The notes beneath the pieces are model-generated. The model made no database searches, was not told the origin of the DNA, and saw only the letters and a program-made list of their open reading frames with translations. Source: Jaminaea rosea (taxonomy: Eukaryota > Basidiomycota > Exobasidiomycetes > Microstromatales). From it: a stretch of 64,000 nucleotides of DNA. The stretch is from the NCBI RefSeq assembly GCF_003144245.1, contig NW_020289985.1, forward strand, positions 124,001 through 188,000. The letters run 5' to 3'. A program made the translations under genes and the position numbers. The first letter of the stretch is position 1; each line of letters begins with the position of its first letter. This document shows positions 3,112 to 61,191 of this stretch, piece by piece.

Positions 3112-5743
3112 GGGAGGGGAGGAGTCGTGATAGGGGAGAGGCGGCGGCGGACAGAAAGTAGCTGTTGAGGACTGTGAGCCTTTCAACAGGCTTGCAGCGC
3201 AGGAAGAAGCGGAGGACGCGGTGGGACGGACCGAGCCGATGAGGCAGTCGGTTGCCGGTGTGATGATGAGTTACAGGTCGGCAGAGGACGGCGAGCTTGG
3301 AGGATGCGAAAGTCAGTGCAGCGCTGTGAGCGGAACCAGAGCGAGGGCCGCGGCGTGGAACGGCCGCTCGTCACCCATCTATTCATTCATCCGATGTACG
3401 TACGGTTGGCTGCGCACAATACCCATGATGCGTTGTGGTAGCTTCTCTTTCCCTCGGCAGCACGAGTCACGAGGGGCACCGATCCGGAGAGATACCACAG
3501 AAGACCTAAAGACTGGATGCATGAAGAGCGTCATGGGAAGAGGGAAGGAAGGAAACGGGCGTGACTTGTTGCTGTCGTAGACACGCCGGTACAACGTGGC
3601 TTCGCGAGGATTGTAGCGGTCGCGCAGTGGATTCAAGCGGCGATTATGTCGTCGAGAAGCTTTCTGGACGTGCTGTCCGCCCAGTAGCTTCGTGCGTGGT
3701 AATGGTCAAGACAGAAGGTGCGAGCCGCATTGGGAACAGGGTTCAACGACACTGACCAGCGCAAGGGGGTCGCCGTCTTGCTTCTTCGTACACCCGCGAC
3801 ATCGTGATCGTAGAGCTTGTTTGGTCAGCCCTCGCCTCCTTTCGAAGCGATAGCACATAGCAACCTCCAAAGGGCAAGAAGTTGAGGCAATAAATCGCAT
3901 CACGACTCGTCGCAAGGCCAGAAAGCAAGGAAGCAAGCAAGACAGCCTCGGTAGGCCGGCCTCTGAAGCTGGAAGTAGCAAGGAACAACGAGAAGTCAAG
4001 CTTCCTTGTTTTTCCCACACCCTCAATCTTCCCTCTGCCCGTACGGCCATTGACCGTATTTGCGGTGCAGCCCGAAGCGATAAGGGTTCCTTGTTGTCCC
4101 TTGTCGTCATGGCGATGTACACGCCTGGGTGCTGGCTTGCCCGAAGTAGGTACGTCGATATCTAATGTGGGGGCTTGCGAGCTAGCGCGGGCATGAATAC
4201 ACAAATAGGCTCTCAGGGGACGCGATGTTGCGCAGTAATTGACGGCGAGAGCGCCGAGAAGACGACAGTGAGGCCACAAGTTGCGGCGCTACCCTGCCTT
4301 CGTTGCCCTCGGGCCCCGATGTGCTACGCTGCGACGGGCTGCGAGGTCGTCATCAGCATCGACTGCACAATGTGAGGCTGCAACGGAAATACCGCTCGAG
4401 GTACATTGTGCGCAAATCGATCAGGTCGCTCGTGGTCACGCGTTCTCGTGTTGGTCCTTCCATTTCCGCTGATCGATAAGGGTCAAGGCAATGCAGTGCG
4501 GCAGCCGTCGCGAGGTGGCGTCAAGTCCTGCCGAGTCTAACAAGCTTTGCTAGCTGCCAACACGCCAAGCAGTGAGCCAATACGTGAAGGCCGCGTTACC
4601 TTTCGTGGGAAGCCAGCCATCATGTGAAGAAGCTCTTTCGCAAGGCCGGTACCGAGCTTCGTCGCGCATTGCATTGCTACCCAGACCGTAGGCCGTTGAC
4701 CCTTGACAGGCGGCAATAGCGGCGGCGGTGGATGATGCAAGCGAAGATTGGACGGTGGCGGCGATCCAGGCTGGGTCATGCGCAGCCACTCTCTGGCTAT
4801 ACCATAGAGGTAGGCGATCCCAATGTCTCACGGTGTCTCGCGGGCGGTGCCGATCCAGAGCTCACCATAATGTCAAGTTCGTGGTCGTCGTCGTCAGGAT
4901 CATCATCCTGGTCGCCCGAGGTAAAGTGTCAGCGGGTGCGGCTTGGCGGCTCAGGCGGCTGACAATGAGATGCTGCTGTAGCGTGTCGTCGCTTGTTCTT
5001 CCTGTGCATAGTCATCGTAGCCGGGCTTCCATCGAAGCCGTGGCGCCTGGAGTCGCTTTCCGCTTTGCCCTGCCGTGGGCGTGAGTGCGTGCCGGCGTGG
5101 GGGTGGAGAGAGCCAGGCGCGAGCAAGCAGAAGCAAGCAAGCGGCCAGCGGCAAGTCCGGGCGCAAGTCTCGGTCGCACTTGCCGGCAATTTCGTGTTGC
5201 GTTGCAACGAGCGAGGGAGAATGATGCCTCATCCTCGCGCTCCTCGCGCTCCTGGCACTCGCACTCACACTCGCCGTCATGGTCATACAGTGCGGATGCG
5301 GATCTCGTCCCTGGCAAGGCGATGGACGAGTTGATATCGCGAACACAGAGCCAAGCCAAGCAAGGAAAGCTGGAAAGCAAGAAGCGGCGCAATGTGAACT
5401 GAGCCTAAGTCAGCCACCAGCCACCGCCGGCTGGGCGATACCCAGATTGTAATTCGTCGAAAGTCTGCCTCGAGAGGGCAAAGCGTGTTAGCTCGAGATG
5501 CTCATGGCGAACGGCGAGTCATCTGCCGCCTGACGGCGTCATGATCGTGCTCTTCTTCCTCTCCATCACTCCTCCCCTTTGCTCACCTCCATTTGGTACA
5601 AGAAGGCGGCCAATGGCATTGCCACAACCTCGATTCTACCATCCCTCATCCCAGCCAGCCTCTTCCTCCTTCCTCTCAAACCTTTTCAGCTCCCCGGCTC
5701 GCCACCCTCCTCAAGCATAAGACCTCCCTCCACCTCAACCATA
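3112..5743. other. Gene-free stretch between OPI3 and the protease
   Basis: About 2.6 kb without a supportable gene. Frames of up to 178 codons exist (for example 3743-4279 minus), but they lack domains, usually start at non-ATG codons and conflict with each other. The last ~200 bases are pyrimidine-rich and probably form the protease promoter and leader. Confidence 0.5.
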
Positions 5744-7070
5744 ATGCAGCTCTCCCTCACCTTCGTCACAGGCCTCATCGCCGCTGGCCTCGCTCTGGCC
5801 GCCCCTGCCCCTACAGGCTCAGACGATGCTATGCTGCGCGTACCCCTCACCAAGCGCCGTATTGACCTTTTCGTGTCCGACGACAGTGACCTCATCGACG
5901 ATGACAAGGTCTCTATCCACATCAAGAAGCTGCGCAACAAGTACTCGCACACCCTCGAGAACCTTGCCCTCCACGAGAACAACGAGCAGAAGCGCGCCAT
6001 CTCCAACATCCCACTTGAGCCTCAGGGGCCTACGGCTTCTTTTTACTCCGGCAACGTTCAATTTGGTGGGCAGACGCTCAATATTGACTTCGACACGGGA
6101 TCCAGCGACGTTACCTTGAACAAGGGAGCTTGGAAGCCCACGACCAACAGTGTCAGGACGGGCAAGCGTTTTCAAAACGTCTACGGTACCGCGGTGAGCT
6201 CAACCACCGCCCTCCTCGCGCATCATCTTGCCCATTCAACTGACTCACTTTGCCCAACACGCACGCACAGACCAATCGGAAAGTCGTAGAGGGTGAAGTC
6301 TACCAGGACAGCTTTGCCTCAGGCAACGTCAAGGCTTCCAAGGCCTCCATCGGCCTCATCACGGGCAGCGACAACATCATCGACGGAGCTGATGGACTCG
6401 TGGGGCTCGCATACCCTTCCATCTCCAACTACGGCTCGGCCCTCCCGCCGCTCTTCGACTCGCTGATGCAGCAGAACGCTGTTACCAATAAGGTCTTTGG
6501 CTTCTCGCTCGGCCCGCAGGGGTCTGAATTGACCCTGGGTGGCATCGACTCAAGCAAGGTGACTGCGAGCGGGCGATGTGATCAAAGAGAAGTCCATGAG
6601 AGCTCACTCATCACCACCTTTCCTCTTCGCTCACGCAGTACTCGGGCCAGATCACTTACACCCCCGTCACCAAGCAAGCCTACTGGGAAGTGGACGCCTC
6701 GGTCAACGGTCAACGCTTCTCTTCCCTCATCGACACGGGCACAACCCTCGTAGTGGCCCCTACGCAGCAAGCCATCTCCTTTTTCCGTCGCATTGGCGCT
6801 ACGCCCACTCAAGCCAGGTCAGGCGACATCTATGGTGTAGTCCCTTGCAACCAGGTGCCCAAGATCACCTTCACCTACGGAGGCAAGCAGATTGCCATGG
6901 AGGGTGACAGCTCCGTCTTTGGGCGAGTGGACAGCTCGAGGTGCGCACTCAGCATCATTGGGGCCGACTTTGGGCAGCAGGCTTGGATCACGGGTGACTC
7001 GCTGCTGGTCAACACCTACACTGTGTTTGACCGAGCACAGAACAGAGTCGGTTTTGCGACGAAGAAGTAG
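5744..7070 (+). CDS. Secreted pepsin-like aspartic protease (A1 family)
   Basis: Three exons, 5744-6193, 6271-6558 and 6639-7070, give 389 aa. The chosen ATG starts a clear signal peptide (MQLSLTFVTGLIAAGLALA) and sits in an ATAATG context; an in-frame GC-rich leader upstream looks untranslated. A propeptide follows and ends at a Lys-Arg Kex2-type site (residues 83-84). The two catalytic motifs are FDTGSSD (Asp117) and LIDTGTT (Asp278), with the usual lobe sequences DGLVGLAYPS between them and CALSIIGADFGQ near the end. The length is normal for fungal pepsin-like enzymes. There is no Ser/Thr-rich tail or hydrophobic C-terminus, so a soluble secreted enzyme is more likely than a GPI-anchored yapsin. 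Substrate is unknown. Introns are 77 and 80 nt, phase 0. Confidence 0.93.
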
Positions 7071-8526: not shown

Positions 8527-8932
8527 GCTGGTCAGGAGTGTTGCGGTTCTATATGTTGCTGATGGTAGTGATGGGTGATGGTGTTGGATAGAAATCTGGA
8601 ATCGAGTGCGCTCACATCTCGTCTGGGTCGCTCCGCCCGCCCATTCACCCAGGCATCCGCGCGTCGAGCCACTCTACGCGTGAGCAGGGTGCGACGCGTG
8701 GCGGGAAGGACACGCGACAGTGAGAGTGGGACAGGCGCACGGCGACGGTAACTGAGATCGGTATTGATATGGTGATGAATGGTATGATCGCTCTGAATTG
8801 TAATCGGCACACCCAGCTCTCAGAAAGCCGGTTTGGCAAGCGCGCTCCAGAAGTCGTCGCCCATCCACATGCCCTCGGCCACTGCCTCAAACATCTTCGC
8901 CTCACTCCCCTTGGACCTCTCTTGCCATTCGT
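8527..8932. other. ASF1 promoter side and alternative 3' end of the neighbour
   Basis: Upstream of ASF1 (minus strand). The part from 8820 to 8932 reads on the minus strand as a protein-like frame rich in Trp, Met and Phe and ending at TGA (8822-8820). It may be the true C-terminus of the adjacent triple-module gene. The rest (8527-8819) is taken as ASF1 promoter. Confidence 0.45.
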
Positions 8933-11900
8933 TCATGCGGACTCCCTGCGCAAAGCTCGCCAAGTAGCGCTACGGGAGGGTCCTTCGAGCATGTCGCGAA
9001 TCATGAGGAATTTGAGCTGCTTGCTCAGCTCAAGAGGTGTGACGCTGGCAGGAATACCGAGAGCGGCAAGGCGAGCGGGTCGGGTGGAGTTGCGTTGAGT
9101 GATGGAAGGGCAGGAAGAGGCATTGCTCGCGGTGCGAGACGAGGGTTTTATGCTGATCGTGTTTTCGGCGGTGGCGCTGCCGTTGCGCAGGGTAGCCATT
9201 GTGACTGGTGCGTAGGAGGGTGCAGCTGCTGCTCCGGCTGCGGCGGCGGGCTTGGTGCCGCTGCTATTGCTCTTCGTTTGCTTGGCACCGGTCGACTTCT
9301 TGATGTTGCTCATTCCCATGACCGCAGCCTTGCTCTGCACCTTTTCCAGCACTTGTTCAAGCGAGTCGTCCTTCTCTTTATCTTTCTTAATCTTCTCATC
9401 CCTTCGCTTCTTCGCAACGTGCTCGACAGAGACCCGCTCAATCGTGTCGAGAATCTGGTTCATGGTGTCCACGCCCTCTGGCCCACCCTTGGAGGCGATA
9501 TTGCGCTGCCTCATGACGGCTAGGATCTCGCGCATGTTGGCAAGGGAGTCCACCTCCAGCTGCGCATCAACCTCTGCATCCTCGTGTGACTCGCAATCAG
9601 AGTTGCGGTGATCGACGTCGCCTGCGAGCTTAGCTGGGGTCGTTGGCTTAGCCTTTACCGGCGCAGGTCGCGCATGCGCATAGATGTGTCGCTGGACACC
9701 CCCAATGGAAATGCTCTGCTCCTTTCCCACGATGATCGCCCTCTCATCATAGTCGTCCTCGTTCCACCTCCACCAATCCACCCCACCTGCGGCAAGCAGA
9801 TCCAAGTCCACCTCCGTCTCCGGCAGCAACTTCAATTCGCACGGCCCCACAACCGCATAATTGCGCACGCCAAGGATGGGAAGCAGCTCGACCTCCCCTG
9901 CGGCAAAGCTCTCCGCGTCTTTTTTCTTGCCCGCAATCGTCGTGACGTAGGGGCGGACGTCCTCTTCAATTCGATAGGTGGTCTTGCGCCTGATCTCAAT
10001 CGCGGCAGAGATGGCTTGCTCGATTGCCCCAAGCGGGACGTATTCATCGTTTGCCGTGAGAGTAGCAGGTAGCTTCGTACCGCCGTCGTCGACGACAATG
10101 TAGAAGCGTAGGGAAGATGCTCCTGCGCCTCCTCCTGGTAGACGGAGACGCTCCCACTTGTCTTGGATCTGCGCCCAATTCTTGATGCCGAGCGAGCCCG
10201 CGGCGATGATGGATGGATTGTCGGGGTAGGGGCGGCTGGTGATAGGCAGGGCGACGGGAGGTTGCGAGGTGGCTGCAACTTGGTTGCTAGCAGGTGCACG
10301 GCTGCTCGTCGTAGCCTTAGCGGCACCGCCAGCACGAGGGCGAGCTCGTACGTGCGCAAAGATGTGCTTGGGATCGGCGTCCATCCACTTGCCGTTGCGC
10401 CACTCGAGCTTGTGTCCTTCTTTGTTGGTCTTCTGCTTATTCTTCTTGCTGCTGATCGAGTAATCGCCGGAGCTGCCGTCGGGAATGGTGGGAACGACAC
10501 CGATGGGCAGCACCCACTCCTTGCCCTCTTCATGGGGCACAATTCTGACCTCATCCGGCCCTAGGACCTCGTAGTGACGAATGTCTAGCCTCGAAGCCAG
10601 CTGTGTCTCACCAGCCCCGTATCGCTTCACGTCCTCCTGATCGCCACCGATCGTCGTAACGTAACCGACCATTTCGATATCCTCGCCATGCTCATACTCA
10701 TAGCGGCAGCAATCACAGATCTCGTCGTGGTTCTGCTGCTGGATGCTCTTGCGCTTCATCTCGTCCTGGCCACATTGCTCTGCTAGGCCGAGTGCGGCAG
10801 TCATAGCGTCTTGTGGGATGAGGGTGCCATCCGCCGCGAGGGTAGCGGATACGCGTGTGCCCTTGTCGTCGTCTGTCAACCATCGGCCAGTGTGCCCGTG
10901 AGCAGGGCAAGAGAGGTTGCGTGGGTAGCTCTGGCCGATCTGAGCGGGCTGGAGGTGTCGCTGCTCCTGCGCCTTGAGCTCGGGCGGGCATGGTTGAGCG
11001 TGCGAGTAGATGTGCCTGGGAGGCTGCTTGGTCGACGAGGTGACTTGCTTGACCTTGCGAAGCACCACGCTCTTCTCTGGGAATTTGAGCGTACCCATGG
11101 CCAGGAAGAGTGGGTCCACCTCCGTCTTGGGAAGGAACTTGACCTCGTCCGGTCCAATGACGGCATAGTTGCGGATGTCGATGCCGGTACTTGCGTCAAT
11201 ACGACCGGCCACGAAGGCTTCGGCGTCATTGAATTTGCCCGCGATGGTGGTGACGTAAGGCCGAACATCGTCCTTGGCCCTGTAGCTGGGCTTCTTGCGC
11301 ACCTCAGTCGCAAGCTGAATGGCTCCTTCGATGACGTCGAAGCCAATGTACTCGCCATTGGGCATGAGCTGTGCTGGGATCGTGACTTGGCCATTGTGAC
11401 CTTCCTCGATGTAGGTCACGCAGGTCGCTCCGCTTCCTCCGCCTAGGTCGAGGCCGAGACTACCCCATTGCTTCTGAGTGCGAGGGCTAGCCTTGATGAG
11501 GTCCGTGCTGGTGGCGGGGCGAGAATTGATGGCCGAGGAGGCAATGGCCTGTTGCACAGAGCGAGGAGTCGCACCGAGAGAGGCTGATTGGCTCGATACC
11601 TTGCTTGCTATGTTGGCCATAATCTGCACAGGGCTGCCCTTGGTCATGGACGAGACGCCAAGCGCACGAGGTGAAGTCGTAGAAGCTGACGCGGCCGACG
11701 AGTCTGACTTGGTAGCATTGGTGGCGCCGCGCGTCGACGTGGTGGGAGAGGCTGGCGTGGGTGGAGCAGGGTCAGGCAGAGTAGCCGTTCTCGTTGGGGT
11801 CTCCTCGACATCGGTCACATCATCGTCTTCGCCATCTGTGCGAGAAATGGAGGGATGGCTGGCTGTGAGTCGACTGATTTGGCGCTGCTCATCATCGCAC

Positions 11901-12045
11901 TCAGCATCTACTGACCAGAGTGATGAGCATCTTCTTTTTTCTTCCTGTCCTTGTCTTTCTTGCGCTTCCTCCTACTCTTGGTATTCACCTTTCTCACCTG
12001 TCGATGGCAGAGGAGATCGAGGTGAGAAGTGGCAGAGGCTCTCAT
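8933..12045 (-). CDS. Unrecognised protein with three copies of a novel module
   Basis: Two exons, 12045-11916 and 11835-8933, give 1010 aa; I do not recognise the family. Exon 1 encodes a Lys/Arg-rich segment (KSRRKRKKDKDRKKK) resembling a nuclear localisation signal. The body has three related units at about residues 167-325, 360-543 and 604-767. Each carries a core like DVRPYVTTIAGK, a DAE.F.AG stretch, IRNYAVIGP.E.K.LP.TEVD, and a closing RHIYAHARP. Unit 2 is the most diverged and has a Cys-rich insert (CDCC). A charged, possibly coiled stretch follows (about 830-890), then a Ser/Ala-rich tail. The frame stops at 8933, yet a protein-like frame continues to 8820 in another phase, so the 3' end is uncertain. 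The gene is divergent from SET2. Function unknown. Confidence 0.72.
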
Positions 12046-32432: not shown

Positions 32433-34592
32433 TCACGCCCCACCCCCCTCCAACAACCCTGCAATTGCCTCTTCCATTCCCTGCATCTTCTCGCGCATCC
32501 CAGCTACCTCACTTTCTCTCTCTGCCGCCCTCTTATTTGCGTCACGCAGCTGACTTCGCAGAGAGAGGTTCTCGAGCTGGAGAGCCTGGCTCAGCTGGTA
32601 GTCTGCTACACGTTTGGCGCTTTGGAGGTGCGGGGAGAGGGAAGAGAGAGTAGTGGGCTGAGATGAAGAAGAGGATGAAGACGAGGAGGGAGTGCGGGTC
32701 AGATTGGAGGGTGGTGGAGCTAGCAGGGAGGATGTCGTGCTTGAGCCGTCCTGTTGCGAGGGCAAGCCTTCTGCTGCTCCTTGGCCTTGGCCTTCGTCGG
32801 CTTCATCCTCCTCAAGGGACAAGAGCAGCCGCAGCTGGTCCAGTGGCACGACGTCGGACAGCAAGCTCGAGGATCGCGCCGCCGCGGCGCTACTGCCGCT
32901 GACACTGCTCCTGGTAGGCGTAGACGCGCCATCCCCTCCTTCGTTGCCATTGGAGGCGGACCGCGAAGCGTGCGGTAGGTTCAGGTTGAAGAGGACGTCT
33001 TCCTGGATCGAAGTTGACTCTTCGCCGTTGCTCTCCATTTGACGGGAGAGTCGCTGTTGCTGTTGTTGCTGTTTCAGTTCTGGGGACATGTCCCCCGCCT
33101 CGGAGGAGGCCGACGATGATGCTTGATCGAAGATAGGTCCCGCGGGGAAGAGACTCAATCTGTTGGCCCCTTGACCACCAGCTTGACCTGCACCCGCAGC
33201 AATCCCATCTCTCAGCTGCGCAAACAACGCCAATCTCAACTGCGCATTAATCGCCCTTTCCTCTGCCAATCCCCTGACTGCCTCTCTTTCCTTCCACTCC
33301 AGCCTTTCCCGTTCCTCTACGCCCTCTTGCTTCCACAGCTCCCTCTCCCTCTCCTGATGTGCAACGGTCAGCCGCTGGAATCCCTCTAAATCCTCCTCGC
33401 GCCGAGCGATTTCCTCCGAAAGCTGGGCCATCTGCTCGCGCAGGTGACCATTTTCATCCTGTATGTCCTCGACGCTCGACGAGACGTCCTCGAGCTCGAC
33501 GCGAAGCTGAGTCACCTCAGCCAGTTTCTCCCTCCATCCAGACTCGAGCTCCTTGCCCAGGGAGCGAAGCACCTCCCTATCCGCCGAAGTAGAAAGCACA
33601 TGTCTCGCCTCGGCGAATCGCATCTGGTCTTCCATCAATTTGCCTTCGTCTACTGCATGCCTCGGTAGTCTCTTTGCCCGATCAGCGGTCGAGTTGGAGG
33701 GAGATAGGGAAGCCATTGCTGCCGCTCCGCCTAGCCGTTCGGGGATCGCGAATCCACGCGAAGCCGCAGAGGTGGCGGCGTAGTTTGCTGCCGAGGTCAA
33801 GGAGTTGAAGATCGAGGTGGAGGAAAGGTTGCGGTATGAGGGGCGTCGCTGCTCTTGTGGCGAGGCCTGGCCCGATGAAGAGGCGGTTGGGCTCATCATC
33901 GTGGGATTGACGTTGGTGGAAGAGGCGTCGGCAGCCTTGTCTGCTGGTGAACGCAGCCTGTCCCAGAGGGAGGACTGGGAGCGTTTGCGTGGGGCGTCGT
34001 CTTCGTCGGCCGCTTTGGTGTCGATGGGTGCCGGGCGAGGGGGAGGTGGTGGAGGCTGGCCTATCGGAGCTGATGATGTCTCTGCTAGAGTCTCTGTTTG
34101 GGCAGGCTCAGCCTCGAGAGCCTTGTTGGAGGCGGACGGCGTCTGGCTACGATTCTCGTCCTCGTGCTGAACACCAGCTTCTTGAGTCTCTCCTGACGCC
34201 GAGTCTAATGTCGTTGAGGCTGCAGTGGTCTCATCAGAAGCGGCCTCTGCCTGTGTCGGCATGGCAGCGCCGCCAACCTCGTTCTCTGGGACCTCAGTGG
34301 TCTTCTCCGCATCCCCGGCCTTCTCAAGAGCGCCTTCAGACTCGTCGACTTTTGCAACTGCCTCTTTGTCCCCTCGAACTGCAGTCTGCTGCGACCCCTC
34401 GTCGTCTCCACCCTCGGCGTCCTCGAAACCATCGCCATCCTCACCATCCTCCTCACTCTCAGCGCCCGATGTTTTTGCCTTTTCCTCAGCGTCTTCCTTT
34501 CTCTGTTTCTCGGCCTCTGCTGATGCCTTGCGATCCTTGCGAGCCTCAGCACGCTTGGCCTTGGCTGTCGAGCCTGCTGCCTTCGGTGGCAT
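32433..34592 (-). CDS. Acidic coiled-coil protein, family not recognised
   Basis: A single exon of 719 aa from the first ATG (MPPKAAGSTAKAK). The frame is open upstream but has no ATG before 34592. The N-terminal ~70 residues are rich in Lys, Ala and Glu; an acidic low-complexity region follows, then a Ser/Pro-rich middle with SLWDRLRSPADKA and SIFNSLTSAANYAATS. Two coiled-coil blocks can be seen. The long one, about 315-445, is rich in Glu/Arg/Leu heptads (for example VTQLRVELEDVSSSVEDIQD). The short one, about 650-715, ends at the stop. Such architecture suggests a scaffold or tether, but no function can be assigned. It converges with RPC82, with 127 bp between stops. Confidence 0.7.
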   Translation of the reverse strand: MPPKAAGSTAKAKRAEARKDRKASAEAEKQRKEDAEEKAKTSGAESEEDGEDGDGFEDAEGGDDEGSQQTAVRGDKEAVAKVDESEGALEKAGDAEKTTEVPENEVGGAAMPTQAEAASDETTAASTTLDSASGETQEAGVQHEDENRSQTPSASNKALEAEPAQTETLAETSSAPIGQPPPPPPRPAPIDTKAADEDDAPRKRSQSSLWDRLRSPADKAADASSTNVNPTMMSPTASSSGQASPQEQRRPSYRNLSSTSIFNSLTSAANYAATSAASRGFAIPERLGGAAAMASLSPSNSTADRAKRLPRHAVDEGKLMEDQMRFAEARHVLSTSADREVLRSLGKELESGWREKLAEVTQLRVELEDVSSSVEDIQDENGHLREQMAQLSEEIARREEDLEGFQRLTVAHQERERELWKQEGVEERERLEWKEREAVRGLAEERAINAQLRLALFAQLRDGIAAGAGQAGGQGANRLSLFPAGPIFDQASSSASSEAGDMSPELKQQQQQQRLSRQMESNGEESTSIQEDVLFNLNLPHASRSASNGNEGGDGASTPTRSSVSGSSAAAARSSSLLSDVVPLDQLRLLLSLEEDEADEGQGQGAAEGLPSQQDGSSTTSSLLAPPPSNLTRTPSSSSSSSSSQPTTLSSLSPHLQSAKRVADYQLSQALQLENLSLRSQLRDANKRAAERESEVAGMREKMQGMEEAIAGLLEGGGA

Positions 34593-35249
34593 TGTCTCTG
34601 GCGATGCCAAGTCTGGCGATGTCGCAGGAGGATGTAGTGGAGGTACGCCTTGATGGCCTGCTGTCGTCTGTCGATGTAAGACAAAAAGGATGGGAAAGGA
34701 CGAGGGGGTGTCGACGAACAAAGTCGTGGTTAGGATGTCAGGATTGACTGGGCCCTAGATTGGTTTCTTGGTGCCTTGATCACTCTTCTTCCGATGTGGC
34801 ACGCACCACGCAACCAGGCATTGCCCACCCTCTGACCCCGCCCGACCGCACGTCCGTAGGGACCAGCAAGCCAGACCAGTCCAATGCCGGTGCGCAGCCC
34901 GGCGGTCATGCAGGCGGGCGGTGCGGCAGGTCGGGGTGGGGCGCACGTCTGATCTCAGGGAGAGAGACACGACGACGACGACGACGAGACAAAGCAATGA
35001 GCGACAAGAAGGGACGTCGTCCTACTGAGCAGAGCGAATTGAAGGTAGCATCAACGACGTGACGATCTGATGAATGAAATCGAATGCGAGCCCTGTTGCC
35101 AGTCACATCTTTTTTCCACGGTTGCCATCGAGGGTGGCGTACCCACACCATCGTAGCCGCTTCACAGATGCTTCTCTTCCTGTCCCACCCCGCTGTTGGG
35201 CCCGAATCCACCTCCACAGCACCCTCATCTCCGTCCTTGGTCAGCCCAC
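34593..35249. other. Intergenic region with ACG repeat
   Basis: 657 bp upstream of the coiled-coil gene and downstream of the BAP31-like gene. It contains six ACG triplets (34969-34986). No gene is supported on either strand. Confidence 0.5.
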
Positions 35250-38240: not shown

Positions 38241-40615
38241 CTAAATCTTCAGCTCTACGAATCCCTTGGGCACATCGCCACCGCCACCGTTGCTGCCGCC
38301 CTTGCCCTTGAGTCTATGCTGCTGTCGCTCTTCCTCATCGAAGCGATCTAATCGCCGGCGATGGGCCGCCGCTGCCGCTTTCGAATTTGGCGCTGGTACA
38401 GCGCCCGCCGCTCTGCCCTTCACCGGCTTTTCCTTGCCCTTCGCCGTCGTGCCTGCCGCTGCTGCCGTCGACGTTTTATCCTTGGCCTTCGTCGCCTTGC
38501 TCTCCTTCAATACCCGATCCTTTGCCCTCCTTTCCCTCTGCCTATCACGCTTCCTCTTGAGCTCAATTTCGCGCTTCTCCGCCTTCGACATTGCGCGAAT
38601 CTCATCGCGATTGAGCGTTGACGGCGAAAGTGGAGGCGAGAGGCGGCCGCGTGATGAGTCGAGCGGGTAGGTGAAGGAAGTTGATGCGTAGGCTGGCGTT
38701 GAGGCACGGGTCGGTTGCGAGGGCGAGGCCGTATCCAGTGGAGTGGAGATGTTGGAGAGAGCCATCGTTGACCCGGGGGATCGGGCGGCCGAGCCCGATG
38801 GCGAACCACTCGACGGGCTGGCCGCATCAACGGTCTTGGCTGCCGCATCAAATTCAGAAGCCAGTGCCCCGTCCACACTCCTCTCTTCTCTCTCGCGCTC
38901 CCTGGAGCTACTGCGTCGTTTTGGTGACCGAGGTGACGGCGCTTCAATCTCGAATGGATCTACGGACAATGCCCGTTTGTTGCTCGTCTTGCCACCACGC
39001 TCCGTCTCGGGCGAGATGCTCGCACGAGGTTCGACGGTCGTTGCTATGCTGGATCCGCCTTCTGCCGACGACGCCGTCGTGGCGGTCGTGGCGTGCGTCG
39101 ATGACGAGTTGGCGTCTCCGCCACTTGAGCTGGCAGGGCTGGCTCCTCGCCACGTATTCGAGTCGTCGTTCGTGCGTAGGTGCTCGGGCACGGGAAGCAG
39201 CGGTGAACGATTATCGTACCTTGATGACGTAGAGGTTGCGTTGTTGAGGTAGGAATGCGACGCGCCTCGAGAACGTGTCATGTACATCTGTCCCGACGTT
39301 GAGGGACTGTCCCGCCCGCCCTGTGCATCTTGAGCGATCAAAACCTCAACGACCGTCTCCCATAGATTACCATGCTTCTTGAGAAGGCCTCGCACTTCTT
39401 GGAGCGTGTGGCCTGGTACTGACCGCAGGATGAGGTCCTCGTGCTCAGTAGGCTTTAGAGGGCGATACTCGTCCTCGTCATCATCATCGTCATAGTCGCT
39501 GCTGGCGTAGCCCCGTTTGCTGGACTTGCTTGCTGCGGGGACGTGTGGTTGTGCTGCTTGCGCTACGTTGGACTCGTCGATGCGAGGGAGGCCAGAGTGT
39601 GGGCCGTCGATATTGCGAAGAGATGAGTAGTGCTCCCAGTTGTGGTAGCTGAGCGCGAGGGGAAGGCGAAGACATGTGAGTGGCGGCGAGGACTACAGTA
39701 GTATCTCGCTCGTGCTCACGCAATGTAGAGCGGCCCAGACGCCTCTATCGGTCCCTCACTGTCCTGTTCCTGCTCTTCGTCATCCGCGAGTCTGCTACTA
39801 CCTGCCACCTCCTGACGAGCTGCACTGGCTTGCCCTCCACCCAACCCCTCCTTCCTTTTACGTCTCCTGATTTCCCTGGCAGTCGCCGCTGGCCTCTCGC
39901 TACCACTAGGCTGCTTGGCTTGAATGGCCTCACGTCTATTCTCGATGGCGCTCCTCTCTGCAACCGCCTCGGGCGAGTCATCATGGCCCGTGACGCGGTA
40001 GACGAGGCCTGGCTGGACAATCTTGATCTCCTTGTGCTTGAGTGAGGCAAACGCAGATAGTTCAAGATGACCACCGTAGACGCCGCTTTGCCGCATGTTG
40101 CGCACGTAGTCGACAAAGGGCTTCTCCACCTCGACGAAGCCGGCAAAGCCTATGGTTCGCGGGCAGAGTTGTGAGCGATGATGTTTGGCCTCTTCCATGT
40201 GGTGGGCAGCAACTCACGCTCAGGACTCGCTTCGATGTAGTCGCAGATCTCTCCACGCAGCTGGGAGTGTGCGTCAGGGTAGCCGTACAGCTGATCTGAC
40301 AGGGCCCTGTGGCGGCGTTGACGAGGGAAATGTGTCAGACGAGGGCGACTCCTGCCCATCGATGGTATCTGGCGGCTGCGCACCTGAACAAGCAGTTTCC
40401 GTCTCCACTCGTGGCAGACGCATAGAGCTTCATCGACTTGAGCTGAGCATTGAGCTGCTTCTCGATAACGTCCGGGTCGTCGACAAGCTGCGGGCGCGAC
40501 AGGTGGGATCGGGGACGTGTGAGCTTGCGTCTCGTCTGCGAATTATCCATAGGCTACGGCGACTTACCTTGGATCCTCTACTCCTCGTTGCTGGCCTTTC
40601 ACCTTTGACTATCAT
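38241..40615 (-). CDS. OTU-domain deubiquitinase (OTUD3-like)
   Basis: Five exons, 40615-40568, 40487-40384, 40306-40218, 40149-39720 and 39648-38241, give 692 aa. OTU proteases cleave ubiquitin chains. The catalytic Cys is in SGDGNCLFRALSDQLYG, with its Asp nearby, and the catalytic His in YHNWEHYSSL, joined across the last intron. Between them are FVEVEKPFVDYV and GGHLELSAFASL. The order and spacing fit the OTUD3 group. A helical module at about 310-350 (LILRSVPGHTLQEV, HGNLWETVVEVLIAQD) resembles a UBA/CUE-type ubiquitin-binding fold. The remaining ~340 residues are Ser/Pro-rich, then a Lys/Arg-rich helix (KRKRDRQRERRAKDR) and a Gly-rich end. The start is the first ATG before exon 2 and is the least certain part. 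Confidence 0.88.
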
Positions 40616-52298: not shown

Positions 52299-53793
52299 CT
52301 ACTTGCCTCCTTCGTTGCCCCTCTCGCCAACCAGTTTGCGCATGGCAGTCGATGCGAAGCTCTCAAAGAGGGTGCGATCTTTCCCATAGACCCATCTGAT
52401 GTGCAGCTGACAAGGATTGTACGCCCGCGCTTCGTCATCGTCCTTGCTACTCTCAACGCTGATGAGGACGCAGAGAGCGGGATCTGCTGATGATGAGGAT
52501 GTAGTGGATGCAGTGGCTCGAGATTTGTCGCTTTTGTCATCTGCTTTCTCTCTCATTGCGGCCCTCCGTGCTGCCCTCGTCCAGGAGGCCGTGTCGAACC
52601 GTACGAAGAGCGCGTCGTCTTCCTCTTCGCGCACCGTGACGGCGGGCAAAGATTTCAGAAAGTTGTGCATCTTGTCCATCGCCTCTGTTGCTCCCTTGCG
52701 GCTCGGCATTTCCTTCTTGATCGACGAAAGAGGCGGTGAGACCCCGGCTGGGTTGTTGATGCGCAGCAGCTCGTCAGGCAAGCGGTGCTGCGCCCACGAC
52801 CAGAGGACGATCCACCGCTTTGTTTGGCCCTGCGTGATACTCGTGAAGCCCCAATTCCGAACATTGCGCTGCTGGAGAAGGGCGTAAATCAGAGGCAGGC
52901 TGGACGCCTTCCCCAGCAGACTGCTGTACCAAATTGACGTTGAGGGAAGGGCGCAACTCTCCTCAATCATTCGAGTCACAAAAGCCACCTCCCCTCCCGC
53001 TGTATAGACCATCTCATTCGCCGAGCCAGAGCAGGCACCACGAGGGGGCAATTGTTTAGCCGCTGCCGCTCTGTCCATCTCTGCCAGGTCGGTGTAGAAG
53101 GGCGGGTTGCACATGGTCATGGCAAAGGGCTGTCCCGAGCCCGCCGTGGGGATAAGCGGAGCATCTGGAGAACGGTGAAGGAGCTTGATCCTCTCGGCGA
53201 GGTTGAGCGATCCCTCATTGTTGTGAGGATGCGCGACGACATGCTCAGCATTCTTGAGAGAGACGGCGTCAATGTCCGTGGCGGTGAAGGTCCAAGAGGG
53301 ATCCAAGGCACAGCCTAGAATAGGGTAGATGGCCGTTGCGCCGGTGCCTATGTCGAGGATACGCGTCGAGGGAGGCGAATCGCAGCGTGCTCTCTTCCTA
53401 GGTTGGATCTGCTCATCCCCACCTGGTTGCGTTGCGTACCGTGGCAACCCATCTGGGCCAATGGTGGCGTTGAGGACGTCTTGCACCCAGAGGAGATAGT
53501 CGAGTCGGTTGGGTACAGGAGGACAGAGTCGATCCTCGGGCTGTTGATGGACATGAATGCCCCAGTCCTGCTTCAGCACAGCCTGATTCAGCGCTCTGAG
53601 GGCCTCTGGATCCTGGAAGTTGATGCGGCCGTCTTGGAGATGCTGGGCAAAGGCAGGATGGGCATTGGCGAGGGCCTTGAAGTCTATGCCATCCTGACCG
53701 TATGGGTTGCGAGCTGCGAGCAGAGAGGTTCGTAATGATCAGCGGATGGCAGAGTGAGGAGCATGATGAGCTGGCTGCCTGCTCACGATGCAT
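52299..53793 (-). CDS. METTL16: METTL16-type RNA N6-adenine methyltransferase
   Basis: Two exons, 53793-53787 and 53713-52299, give 473 aa. METTL16 methylates an adenine in U6 snRNA and structured RNAs. The N-terminus MHPRNPYGQDGIDFKALANA parallels the human MHARNRY region. Then come INFQDPEALRALNQAVLKQD, the AdoMet-binding ILDIGTGATAIYPILG, the catalytic MCNPPFYTD, NEMVYTAGGEVAFVTRMIEE and QGQTKRWIVLWSW. The catalytic domain is complete and NPPF is intact. The C-terminal part (from about 330) is short, and the vertebrate RNA-binding region is not evident. Exon 1 holds only 7 coding bases (ATGCATC); no suitable ATG exists in exon 2 before the domain. The intron is 73 nt. Divergent from KAP95. 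Confidence 0.92.
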
Positions 53794-58839: not shown

Positions 58840-61191
58840 ATGGCTCAAGTGATGCAGCCTCGTCCTCATCCGCCTCTTCCCGCCCACTCCGCCGCCGCCG
58901 CCGCCGCCGCCGCCGATGCTGCAGCAGCTGCTCTCCACTCACACACCTCGCCCTCGGCAGCAGCAGCAGCAGCAGCGAAGGGAGCGGGTTCATCCGCTTC
59001 ATCCCCTGTGATCACAGCTGGTGGTGATGCTGCTTCACCTCCAACCTACTCTTCACCTCTGAGCTACCGATCCTTCTTCTCTTCCTTTTTCCAGCCTGCG
59101 TCGATATCCTCGTCGCCGTCTGCGTTACCACTCTCCTCGACTCGGGATAGGACGCACGACGTCGCTGAGAACGCAGCAGCATCACCAGCAGCCGCCCCTC
59201 CAAGCCCTCACCCTCATGTCAGGTGGGTGTCTGAGCCTGTACCGATGAGCGTATCTTCCGAAGACGAGGCTGTCTCGCCCACTCGAGCGGTTCAATCCAC
59301 CTCCCCCGGCAGAGATGCATATTCTCAATCGCCAAAGGCAACGAGCGACCATGATGGTAACCGCAGCGAAGTGGGCGCGAGTGGTAGTGGATTCCTGCAC
59401 TCGGAGGACAAGCGCACAAAAAGGAAGCGCAAACCTTCGCCGCCTGAACTCCTCGTCATTGTCCGACCACCGCCTGCTAGTAAGGATCGCAACCCCCTAA
59501 ATCTGCAGATTCAGCTTGTCCTCCCGCAAGCTCCTCCTGCGCAGAGTAACGGTCGGACATCAGGAGAATCGAGCAGGGATACCGCGTCCAATGCAGGTGG
59601 CAGAGGAGCAGATCAGCTCAGAAGACGCAACTCGTCGAGCTCGACGAGATCTGGTAGATCAGAAGTGACGACGGCCTCGTCATCGAGCTATGGAGGAGGT
59701 GGGAGCAGCGCGAGGCGAGTCACCCCGCTATACAACCTCTCGATCCACTCGATTCTCCCTACGACAATCTCTGACGCAGGTACCGACCAACGCGTGGCCA
59801 AATACAGCAAAAAGGGCGTAGAGATCGACGGCTTCGGTGTGCTAGAACCATCCGAGCTCCTTCATGGCATCAACGACCTCGCGAGCCTCGAGGCCACGGG
59901 CGTCATCCCTGTCGCATCCCCGGGCGTCGTCTCCCCCAGCAGAGGCAGCACAGACGGCGAGCCCACGAGCGATCCAGGTGTGGTATCTGCTGGAGTAGAG
60001 CCACCCACCAGCTTCGACTCAATGACACCTGAAGCTCAATCGCCCGACGGCCACCTTGGTGCCAAGTTCATGCGTCGCTTTAAGGGCTTGAGCTTGAATC
60101 TAGGCAGAAACGAAGGAGGAGGCGGTCCAGCAGCGTCGATCGCAGCAGCTTCGACCGCCGCAGCTTCAGCCAAGCCAAGCTTCACCTCCTTCTTGTCCAA
60201 CTTGAGCAATGGACCGAAAGTGCCCCGATCAGCAACAGTAGCTGGGCCAGAAGCGGCTGCTGCCCTCTCGCCATCACGCCCGCTCTCGTCTGCTGGCCTC
60301 ACCATCGCGACAGCTGGGCCGAACCACCACCAAAATGGAAGCGGCAACGACGTCACACAAATGGTCCCGGGTGCAGGGCTAAGTGAGTCTGGTCGAAGGA
60401 CGCAGGGCTACTACTGGACGGTGAAGCGGTACAATCGCCGTGTGACGGACAGTAACGGTCAGCCACCGCGTATGACCCTAGGATCCGACGGACAGAATCC
60501 GGTCCTCAAGAACGTATGGAGACGCTTCAATTCAGTGAATCGTTTGGGTGGAGAGGAAAAGCATCCGCATCCTTCTGACATTCCGGTGCGGTTCGAGTGG
60601 ACTCGGGAGAGCAGATCGCACAACAACAGTTCGGCTGCGGCAGTGCCCGTGATGGACGCGGCGGGCAAGCGGCTCAGTACAGGGTCCATGTCGCTTTCGC
60701 CGACGATGGATCAGCGAGTGGGTAGGCGGGCCAGTCTACGACCGCCGACGGGACGCAAGACGTCTTCGTCACAGGGCCATGGTCACTCAGTCAGTCGTAA
60801 CGGTCGATCGCAGAGTAGCTCTGCGCGCGTCTCGCTCGACCAAAATGGCGGCGGCGAATCAGCGATCGACGACTACGAAGGCGATGACGATGGCAATGCT
60901 TCTGACCCGGAGGACTCTGAAACTCCCTGGTCATGTCACCTCGTCCTCGGCGCATCCACTCGCATCCCCATCGGGACTCTCTCCCCAGCACCGCACCACC
61001 CCAAACTCGTAGCGCAGCTGGCGGTGCCCTTCCCGCTACCCGACTTGTCGCAGACTGGGCTCGGGGCTGATGGGGCAGGCCTGACGAGGGAGGAGATCAA
61101 GGACGTCATCTGCGTGACGTGCCTACATCTCATCATCAGGGAGAGCTTCGGTGGACTGGGTCGAGTGAGGAGGAGGGGCGATCGTGTCTGA
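58840..61191 (+). CDS. Large hypothetical protein with four ordered blocks
   Basis: A single exon of 783 aa, not recognised. The N-terminal 190 residues are low complexity, with an Ala run from eight GCC codons (58891-58915). Four blocks then look structured: ~197-230 (PPELLVIVRPPP, LQIQLVLPQAPP), ~292-340 (RVTPLYNLSIHSILPTTI, GVEIDGFGVLEPSELL), ~522-590 (GYYWTVKRYNRR, VWRRFNSVNR, IPVRFEWTRE) and ~695-774 (PWSCHLVLGASTRIPIGTLS, VICVTCLHLIIRESFGGLG). The blocks are rich in aromatic and hydrophobic residues and separated by Ser/Gly/Pro linkers. No signal peptide or membrane segment is seen. The long open frame and block pattern support a real gene. Function unknown. Confidence 0.75.
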   Translation: MAQVMQPRPHPPLPAHSAAAAAAAADAAAAALHSHTSPSAAAAAAAKGAGSSASSPVITAGGDAASPPTYSSPLSYRSFFSSFFQPASISSSPSALPLSSTRDRTHDVAENAAASPAAAPPSPHPHVRWVSEPVPMSVSSEDEAVSPTRAVQSTSPGRDAYSQSPKATSDHDGNRSEVGASGSGFLHSEDKRTKRKRKPSPPELLVIVRPPPASKDRNPLNLQIQLVLPQAPPAQSNGRTSGESSRDTASNAGGRGADQLRRRNSSSSTRSGRSEVTTASSSSYGGGGSSARRVTPLYNLSIHSILPTTISDAGTDQRVAKYSKKGVEIDGFGVLEPSELLHGINDLASLEATGVIPVASPGVVSPSRGSTDGEPTSDPGVVSAGVEPPTSFDSMTPEAQSPDGHLGAKFMRRFKGLSLNLGRNEGGGGPAASIAAASTAAASAKPSFTSFLSNLSNGPKVPRSATVAGPEAAAALSPSRPLSSAGLTIATAGPNHHQNGSGNDVTQMVPGAGLSESGRRTQGYYWTVKRYNRRVTDSNGQPPRMTLGSDGQNPVLKNVWRRFNSVNRLGGEEKHPHPSDIPVRFEWTRESRSHNNSSAAAVPVMDAAGKRLSTGSMSLSPTMDQRVGRRASLRPPTGRKTSSSQGHGHSVSRNGRSQSSSARVSLDQNGGGESAIDDYEGDDDGNASDPEDSETPWSCHLVLGASTRIPIGTLSPAPHHPKLVAQLAVPFPLPDLSQTGLGADGAGLTREEIKDVICVTCLHLIIRESFGGLGRVRRRGDRV

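Follow-up and report, generated by a model that had tools for sequence, protein, structure and literature searches.

Three diverged copies of one module within a single predicted protein of Jaminaea rosea

What kind of protein carries one module three times in a single chain, and does that module belong to a described family? The question is raised by a long open frame on the minus strand of the window, the whole 64,000-nucleotide stretch of DNA that we analysed.

Three copies of one module in a single chain

The main open frame of the repeat protein (P0001; 8933..11818, minus strand) is uninterrupted over 961 codons plus a stop, and it encodes three copies of one module, each about 150-180 residues in length. 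The core of unit 1 is located at 10985..11431 (minus strand, P0001 residues 130-278), that of the diverged unit 2 at 10343..10891 (minus strand, residues 310-492) and that of unit 3 at 9665..10120 (minus strand, residues 567-718). The initial annotation had described three units carrying short motifs in a fixed order, and all of the motifs it quoted are present in that order. Cut at first as residues 115-280 (U1), 303-496 (U2) and 547-722 (U3), the units yield local alignment scores of 131 (U1-U2), 337 (U1-U3) and 147 (U2-U3), compared with a best of 1000 shuffles per pair of 55, 53 and 59, respectively. All pairs align far above their shuffles in this self-comparison, which the annotation had proposed as a check. 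Core identity is 44% for U1-U3, 31% for U1-U2 and 33% for U2-U3, in agreement with its description of units 1 and 3 as close and of unit 2 as diverged.

A tblastn search of the units against the whole window recovered units 1 and 3 from one another (E = 2.7e-39 and 9.3e-36) as well as the pairs that include unit 2 (E = 3.3e-11 to 7.8e-14); beyond the other two units, no unit found anything in the window below E = 0.1. Leave-one-out profiles, each built from two units, recovered the omitted unit at E = 8.1e-25 (U1), 2.3e-12 (U2) and 4.3e-26 (U3). The three-unit profile, which matches its own units by construction, was searched against all six reading frames of the window (translated frames of at least 40 residues, E up to 1) and found no fourth copy; elsewhere in the repeat protein it gave nothing of note (one match of −4.8 bits). 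The copies align above chance, in order and in one frame, and so qualify as an internal repeat. That a domain was amplified inside one gene, as first proposed, is well supported by the shuffles, tblastn, alignment, identity and profiles.

Thirty-one columns are identical across all three cores, which were aligned with a glycine-rich stretch trimmed off. Gly, Ala, Tyr, Val, Thr, Pro, Leu and Ile account for most of these columns (21/31), charged residues for 8 and His for 2, both in the last motif (HI..H). Sequence and alignment place a Cys cluster (HDEICDCC; 10706..10729, minus strand, residues 364-371) in an insertion of unit 2, with ICDCC positioned in a 15-residue stretch present in this unit only. 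The cluster is thus particular to unit 2, as had been noted; the statement that unit 2 gained it goes further than the alignment, in which a gain in unit 2 is indistinguishable from a loss in units 1 and 3.

Comparison of the units at the codon level revealed agreement at positions 1/2/3 of 0.57/0.67/0.37 for U1-U3, 0.46/0.54/0.33 for U1-U2 and 0.55/0.57/0.38 for U2-U3. At positions 1 and 2 the observed range is 0.46-0.67; dealing the columns anew lowers it to 0.26-0.31. At position 3, redrawing codons for the same residues gives an expectation of 0.37 (U1-U3), 0.32 (U1-U2) and 0.33 (U2-U3) with a standard deviation of about 0.036, and there is no clear signal further to the shared residues. 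Identical codons at shared residues number 28/64 for U1-U3 (27.9 expected), and are somewhat above expectation for U1-U2 (27/44, 19.5 expected) and for U2-U3 (26/48, 20.2 expected), with a standard deviation of 3.2 in either case. As positions 1 and 2 agree and position 3 agrees only as the residues predict, the likeness of the units is kept at the protein level. These comparisons show that the units are old in-gene duplications, conserved as protein between units.

Gene context and ends of the repeat gene

A Pfam scan covered 17 long frames of the window, beyond the frame of the repeat protein. These include frames with SET and SRI domains (Set2), a trehalose-6-phosphate synthase and phosphatase, a choline transporter-like protein, a phage-type RNA polymerase as in mitochondria, an ESCRT-II subunit, PEMT, RPC82, importin beta, a cytidylyltransferase (CDP-diacylglycerol synthase type) and an amidohydrolase; names that go further than Pfam's own labels are those that we presume to apply. 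By its gene content, the window is eukaryote nuclear DNA; this content and its general look read as fungal, probably basidiomycete. ARAGORN, run with bacterial settings, found no tRNA in the window, and no Rfam family reached its cut-off there.

Several other frames of the window deserve mention. A protein at 52299-53579 (minus strand) matches Pfam Methyltransf_10 (E = 4.1e-45) and is presumably of the METTL16 type. Frames of 762 codons at 32433-34721 (minus strand; coiled-coil-like by eye), 384 codons at 38241-39395 (minus strand) and 783 codons at 58840-61191 (plus strand) have no Pfam match at E 0.001. An aspartyl protease is encoded at 5579-7070 (plus strand), with its C-terminal part in the frame 6690-7070 (Pfam Asp, E = 6.1e-20); the frames 5579-6289 (no Pfam match at E 0.001) and 6250-6753 appear by eye to be its earlier part. 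The division of this protease over several frames suggests introns.

The first codon of the 8933-11818 frame is GTG, so the true start of the repeat gene is probably upstream. A candidate first exon with an ATG start (MRASATSHLDLLCHRQ...; 11916..12045, minus strand) has a Lys/Arg-rich stretch at its end. A candidate intron at 11915-11863 or 11915-11836 (donor GTCAGT, acceptor CACAG) would connect the ATG at 12045 to the main frame, and 12045, the upper coordinate chosen in the initial annotation, is thereby borne out as an ATG joinable in frame. With single GT-AG introns of 45-150 bases, 21 start/splice combinations reach the main frame, 16 from the ATG at 12045 and 5 from those at 11930 or 11907; the whole basic stretch is kept in 4 of the 21. 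Among these combinations, we favour the ATG at 12045 with the GTCAGT intron as the candidate gene start. The codon score is positive in the candidate first exon frame (0.02 to 0.40), and it is likewise partly positive in the main frame over 11950-11830. Read from the ATG at 12045, the candidate N-terminus has a Lys/Arg-rich run followed by an acidic patch, and the Lys/Arg-rich stretch, as read by eye, could be a nuclear localisation signal.

The C-terminal tail (8936..9637, minus strand) consists of a charged segment, helical by eye, then low-complexity Ala/Ser/Thr sequence and then LAALGIPASVTPLELSKQLKFLMIRDMLEG. Near 8980, the codon score drops in the main frame and rises in another frame that is open to 8820-8822 (8820-8985), so the true C-terminus may differ from the end of the main frame. 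The possible extra coding stretch indicated by this score (RYLASFAQGVRMNEWQ...ALAKPAF; 8820..8969, minus strand) ends at a stop at 8820-8822. Judged by eye, none of the four GT-AG candidates that could join the main frame to it has a strong donor. The frame change near the main-frame stop would be accounted for by an unrecognised intron or by a break of frame in the sequence. In G+C by codon position, 6 of the 7 unit-overlapping 100-codon segments resemble two other frames of the window, those of importin beta and the mitochondrial RNA polymerase; the exceptions are segment 501-600 and the segments of the N- and C-terminal tails.

Family searches and predicted structure

Pfam (24736 models) has no match at its curated cut-offs for the whole protein, the three units, the tail, the consensus, the unit halves or the flanks; matches were listed up to E 10, of which the HMMER filters discard most above about E 0.1. 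NCBIfam gave no match for 4/4 queries, and sequence and profile searches of PDB sequences found nothing below E = 0.49. We took as chance the PDB matches to an 11S globulin (E = 0.49), a nanobody (E = 1.1) and four Cake proteins (E = 1.5 to 2.9), together with sub-cut-off Pfam matches on the tail (E = 0.14, 0.19 and 0.74) and a single N-terminal flank match (E = 9.1). PHROG 6234, a host RecBCD nuclease inhibitor family, matches 33 residues of unit 3 (E = 3e-4), namely residues 115-147 of the unit 3 stretch queried, which run from ELKLLPETEVD into an acidic Trp-rich insertion of that unit; units 1 and 2 have no match. As this likeness is short and confined to one unit, a relationship was likewise rejected. 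Six further PHROG matches have E-values of 0.07 to 0.3. Short-pattern stretches were found in viral contigs (n = 50, 34 and 34) and prokaryote genomes (n = 53 and 15), none of which was confirmed by tblastn, and plasmid and phage collections held no relative at E up to 0.01. The strings VTTIAGK, RHIYAHARP, DVRPYVTT and PYVTTIAG do not occur in the literature searched, and the portions of the smut-fungus literature available to us contain nothing evidently on the repeat protein.

Structure was predicted in two AlphaFold2 runs, built from the same three sequences and hence not independent. Run 1 used the full units with unit 3 first and the glycine-rich stretch included (pLDDT 31.6, pTM 0.21), and run 2 the trimmed cores with unit 1 first and the glycine-rich stretch removed (mean pLDDT 47.5, pTM 0.45). 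At these values, neither model is confident enough for its fold to be trusted. In run 2, pLDDT is at least 50 in 81/149 residues and at least 70 in 4, and ten-residue blocks over residues 21-110 average 51-69. Both runs place helix, strand, helix, strand, strand in this order in the core, at low confidence; run 1 adds a helix and omits the opening strands. Run 2 (mean pLDDT 47.5) suggests a module order of beta-beta-alpha-beta-alpha-beta-beta. According to this weak prediction, a small beta hairpin would form around A.L..NGEYI, followed by a long helix (DAIE.AI.LA.E.RRK), a strand (YVTTIA), a short helix (DAE.F.AG) and a strand pair (IRNYAV.GP and E.K.LP), and each module probably folds independently. 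Foldseek searches with the low-confidence model gave a best E of 1.3 against PDB (none at or below 0.001 among the best 50 of 119 matches, E up to 10) and of 1.1 against viral folds (none at or below 0.001 among the best 50 of 169, E up to 10); we read nothing into these matches. The description of the repeat as a folded domain stands as regards its amplification, and no fold is predicted with confidence.

The initial annotation also held that the module belongs to no named family. Consistent with this, there is no match at cut-off in Pfam, NCBIfam, or PDB sequences or folds; the novelty of the module means only that no convincing match was found in Pfam, NCBIfam, PDB, PHROG or the collections of viral, prokaryote, plasmid and phage sequences. 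Profile searches of the separate units, which it had recommended, gave nothing at the Pfam cut-offs and a sub-threshold Methyltransf_31 match on unit 1.

The module may instead belong to a fungal family that is already described or catalogued but is missing from the libraries searched or too remote to be matched in them, and we put this not far short of an even chance. Pfam is restricted to curated families, the other libraries were NCBIfam, PDB and collections drawn from viruses, prokaryotes, plasmids and phages, and hmmscan with a single sequence is less sensitive than a profile-profile search. Against such a family, the 24736 Pfam models are empty at cut-off for units, halves and consensus, and the best E of the PDB profile search is 0.49. 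This alternative concerns novelty and not mechanism, and it is compatible with the scaffold that we propose below.

Proposed role and alternatives

As the best overall explanation we tentatively propose a nuclear scaffold of about 1000 residues with three related binding modules, possible rather than probable as it stands. The protein would be nuclear, judging by the basic stretch and acidic patch of its candidate N-terminus. All three modules would engage one kind of partner, either protein or nucleic acid, simultaneously; flexible low-complexity linkers would separate them, and the charged C-terminal segment would make an additional contact. Unit 2 and its lead-in contain C304, H307, H309, C349, H364, C368, C370, C371 and H377, a number that we guess would suffice for a metal site, and unit 2 might be held by metal through these residues. 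As it departs from units 1 and 3, unit 2 may bind another partner. The three modules, the low-complexity linkers, the basic-acidic candidate N-terminus and the charged C-terminal segment lead us to prefer this reading, and in our judgement a multivalent nuclear scaffold would fit better than an enzyme. No catalytic family reaches cut-off in Pfam or NCBIfam; an active site may nevertheless exist, given the 8 charged and 2 His residues among the 31 shared columns, a count from three sequences, too few to tell the functional columns apart.

A more specific proposal, in which a new fungal domain with its own fold, restricted to one lineage, was triplicated early to form a nuclear scaffold with a metal-binding variant as its middle copy, we consider rather unlikely to hold in all its parts. 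Fungi commonly carry genes that are confined to one lineage and encode repeated domains of unknown function, and the repeat protein is ordinary in kind and a modest finding. If orthologues keep the three units, fungal annotators could define a domain and seek its function, and three diverged copies in one chain offer a ready starting alignment.

More doubtful still is that the module serves a fungal transcription regulator as its DNA-binding domain, comparable to APSES/KilA-N, and that the middle unit has become a metal-containing variant. The putatively nuclear N-terminus, the alpha+beta element order of the weak model and a Y-[VI]-P-L run ahead of a helix, which we take to be a trait of APSES/KilA-N-type domains, would all be consistent with it. 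However, no DNA-binding family, APSES and KilA-N included, is among the Pfam matches listed up to E 10, and the weak model has no Foldseek match below E 1. Within the units, windows of 25 residues carry a net charge of −5 to +5, so the units are not strongly basic, which also counts against such a domain.

We find it very unlikely that the units are what remains of a SAM-dependent methyltransferase of class I (Rossmann-like), best preserved in unit 1. Pfam Methyltransf_31 (PF13847) matches unit 1 at E = 2.8e-4 (21 bits) and its first half at E = 1.1e-4 (22.3 bits), and two more methyltransferase families match that half weakly (E = 0.032 and 0.18). LDLGGGSG and GFDVIEGAIQLA resemble what we take to be the first two motifs of the methyltransferase family. 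The glycine-rich stretch of unit 1 is common to unit 3 (GGGAGA) and partly to unit 2, and the full-length three-unit alignment has two invariant Gly columns in it. However, the Methyltransf_31 cut-off is 27 bits, above the 17 bits of the protein and the scores of unit 1 and its first half, and unit 2, unit 3 and the consensus have no methyltransferase match in Pfam. The likeness is between residues 9-65 of unit 1 and profile positions 8-53 of 145, and thus concerns one of three units and the first third of the profile. The unrelated phage family matching a different part of unit 3 at E = 3e-4 indicates that such E-values arise here without meaning. The sub-threshold Methyltransf_31 match is the nearest approach to refuting novelty.

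We give almost no credence to the frame being a DNA-level repeat read in an open frame and not a gene, since, for all that several antisense and alternative-frame open stretches of up to 240 codons exist across the region, agreement between units is seen at codon positions 1 and 2 and is no more than expected at position 3, and G+C by codon position is near that of conserved window genes in 6 of the 7 unit-bearing segments.

The proposed nuclear scaffold can be compared with the general kind of multi-copy binding-module proteins. It differs from them in that its module matched no described one in the libraries searched, and it resembles them in carrying three related modules, joined by linkers, in one chain.
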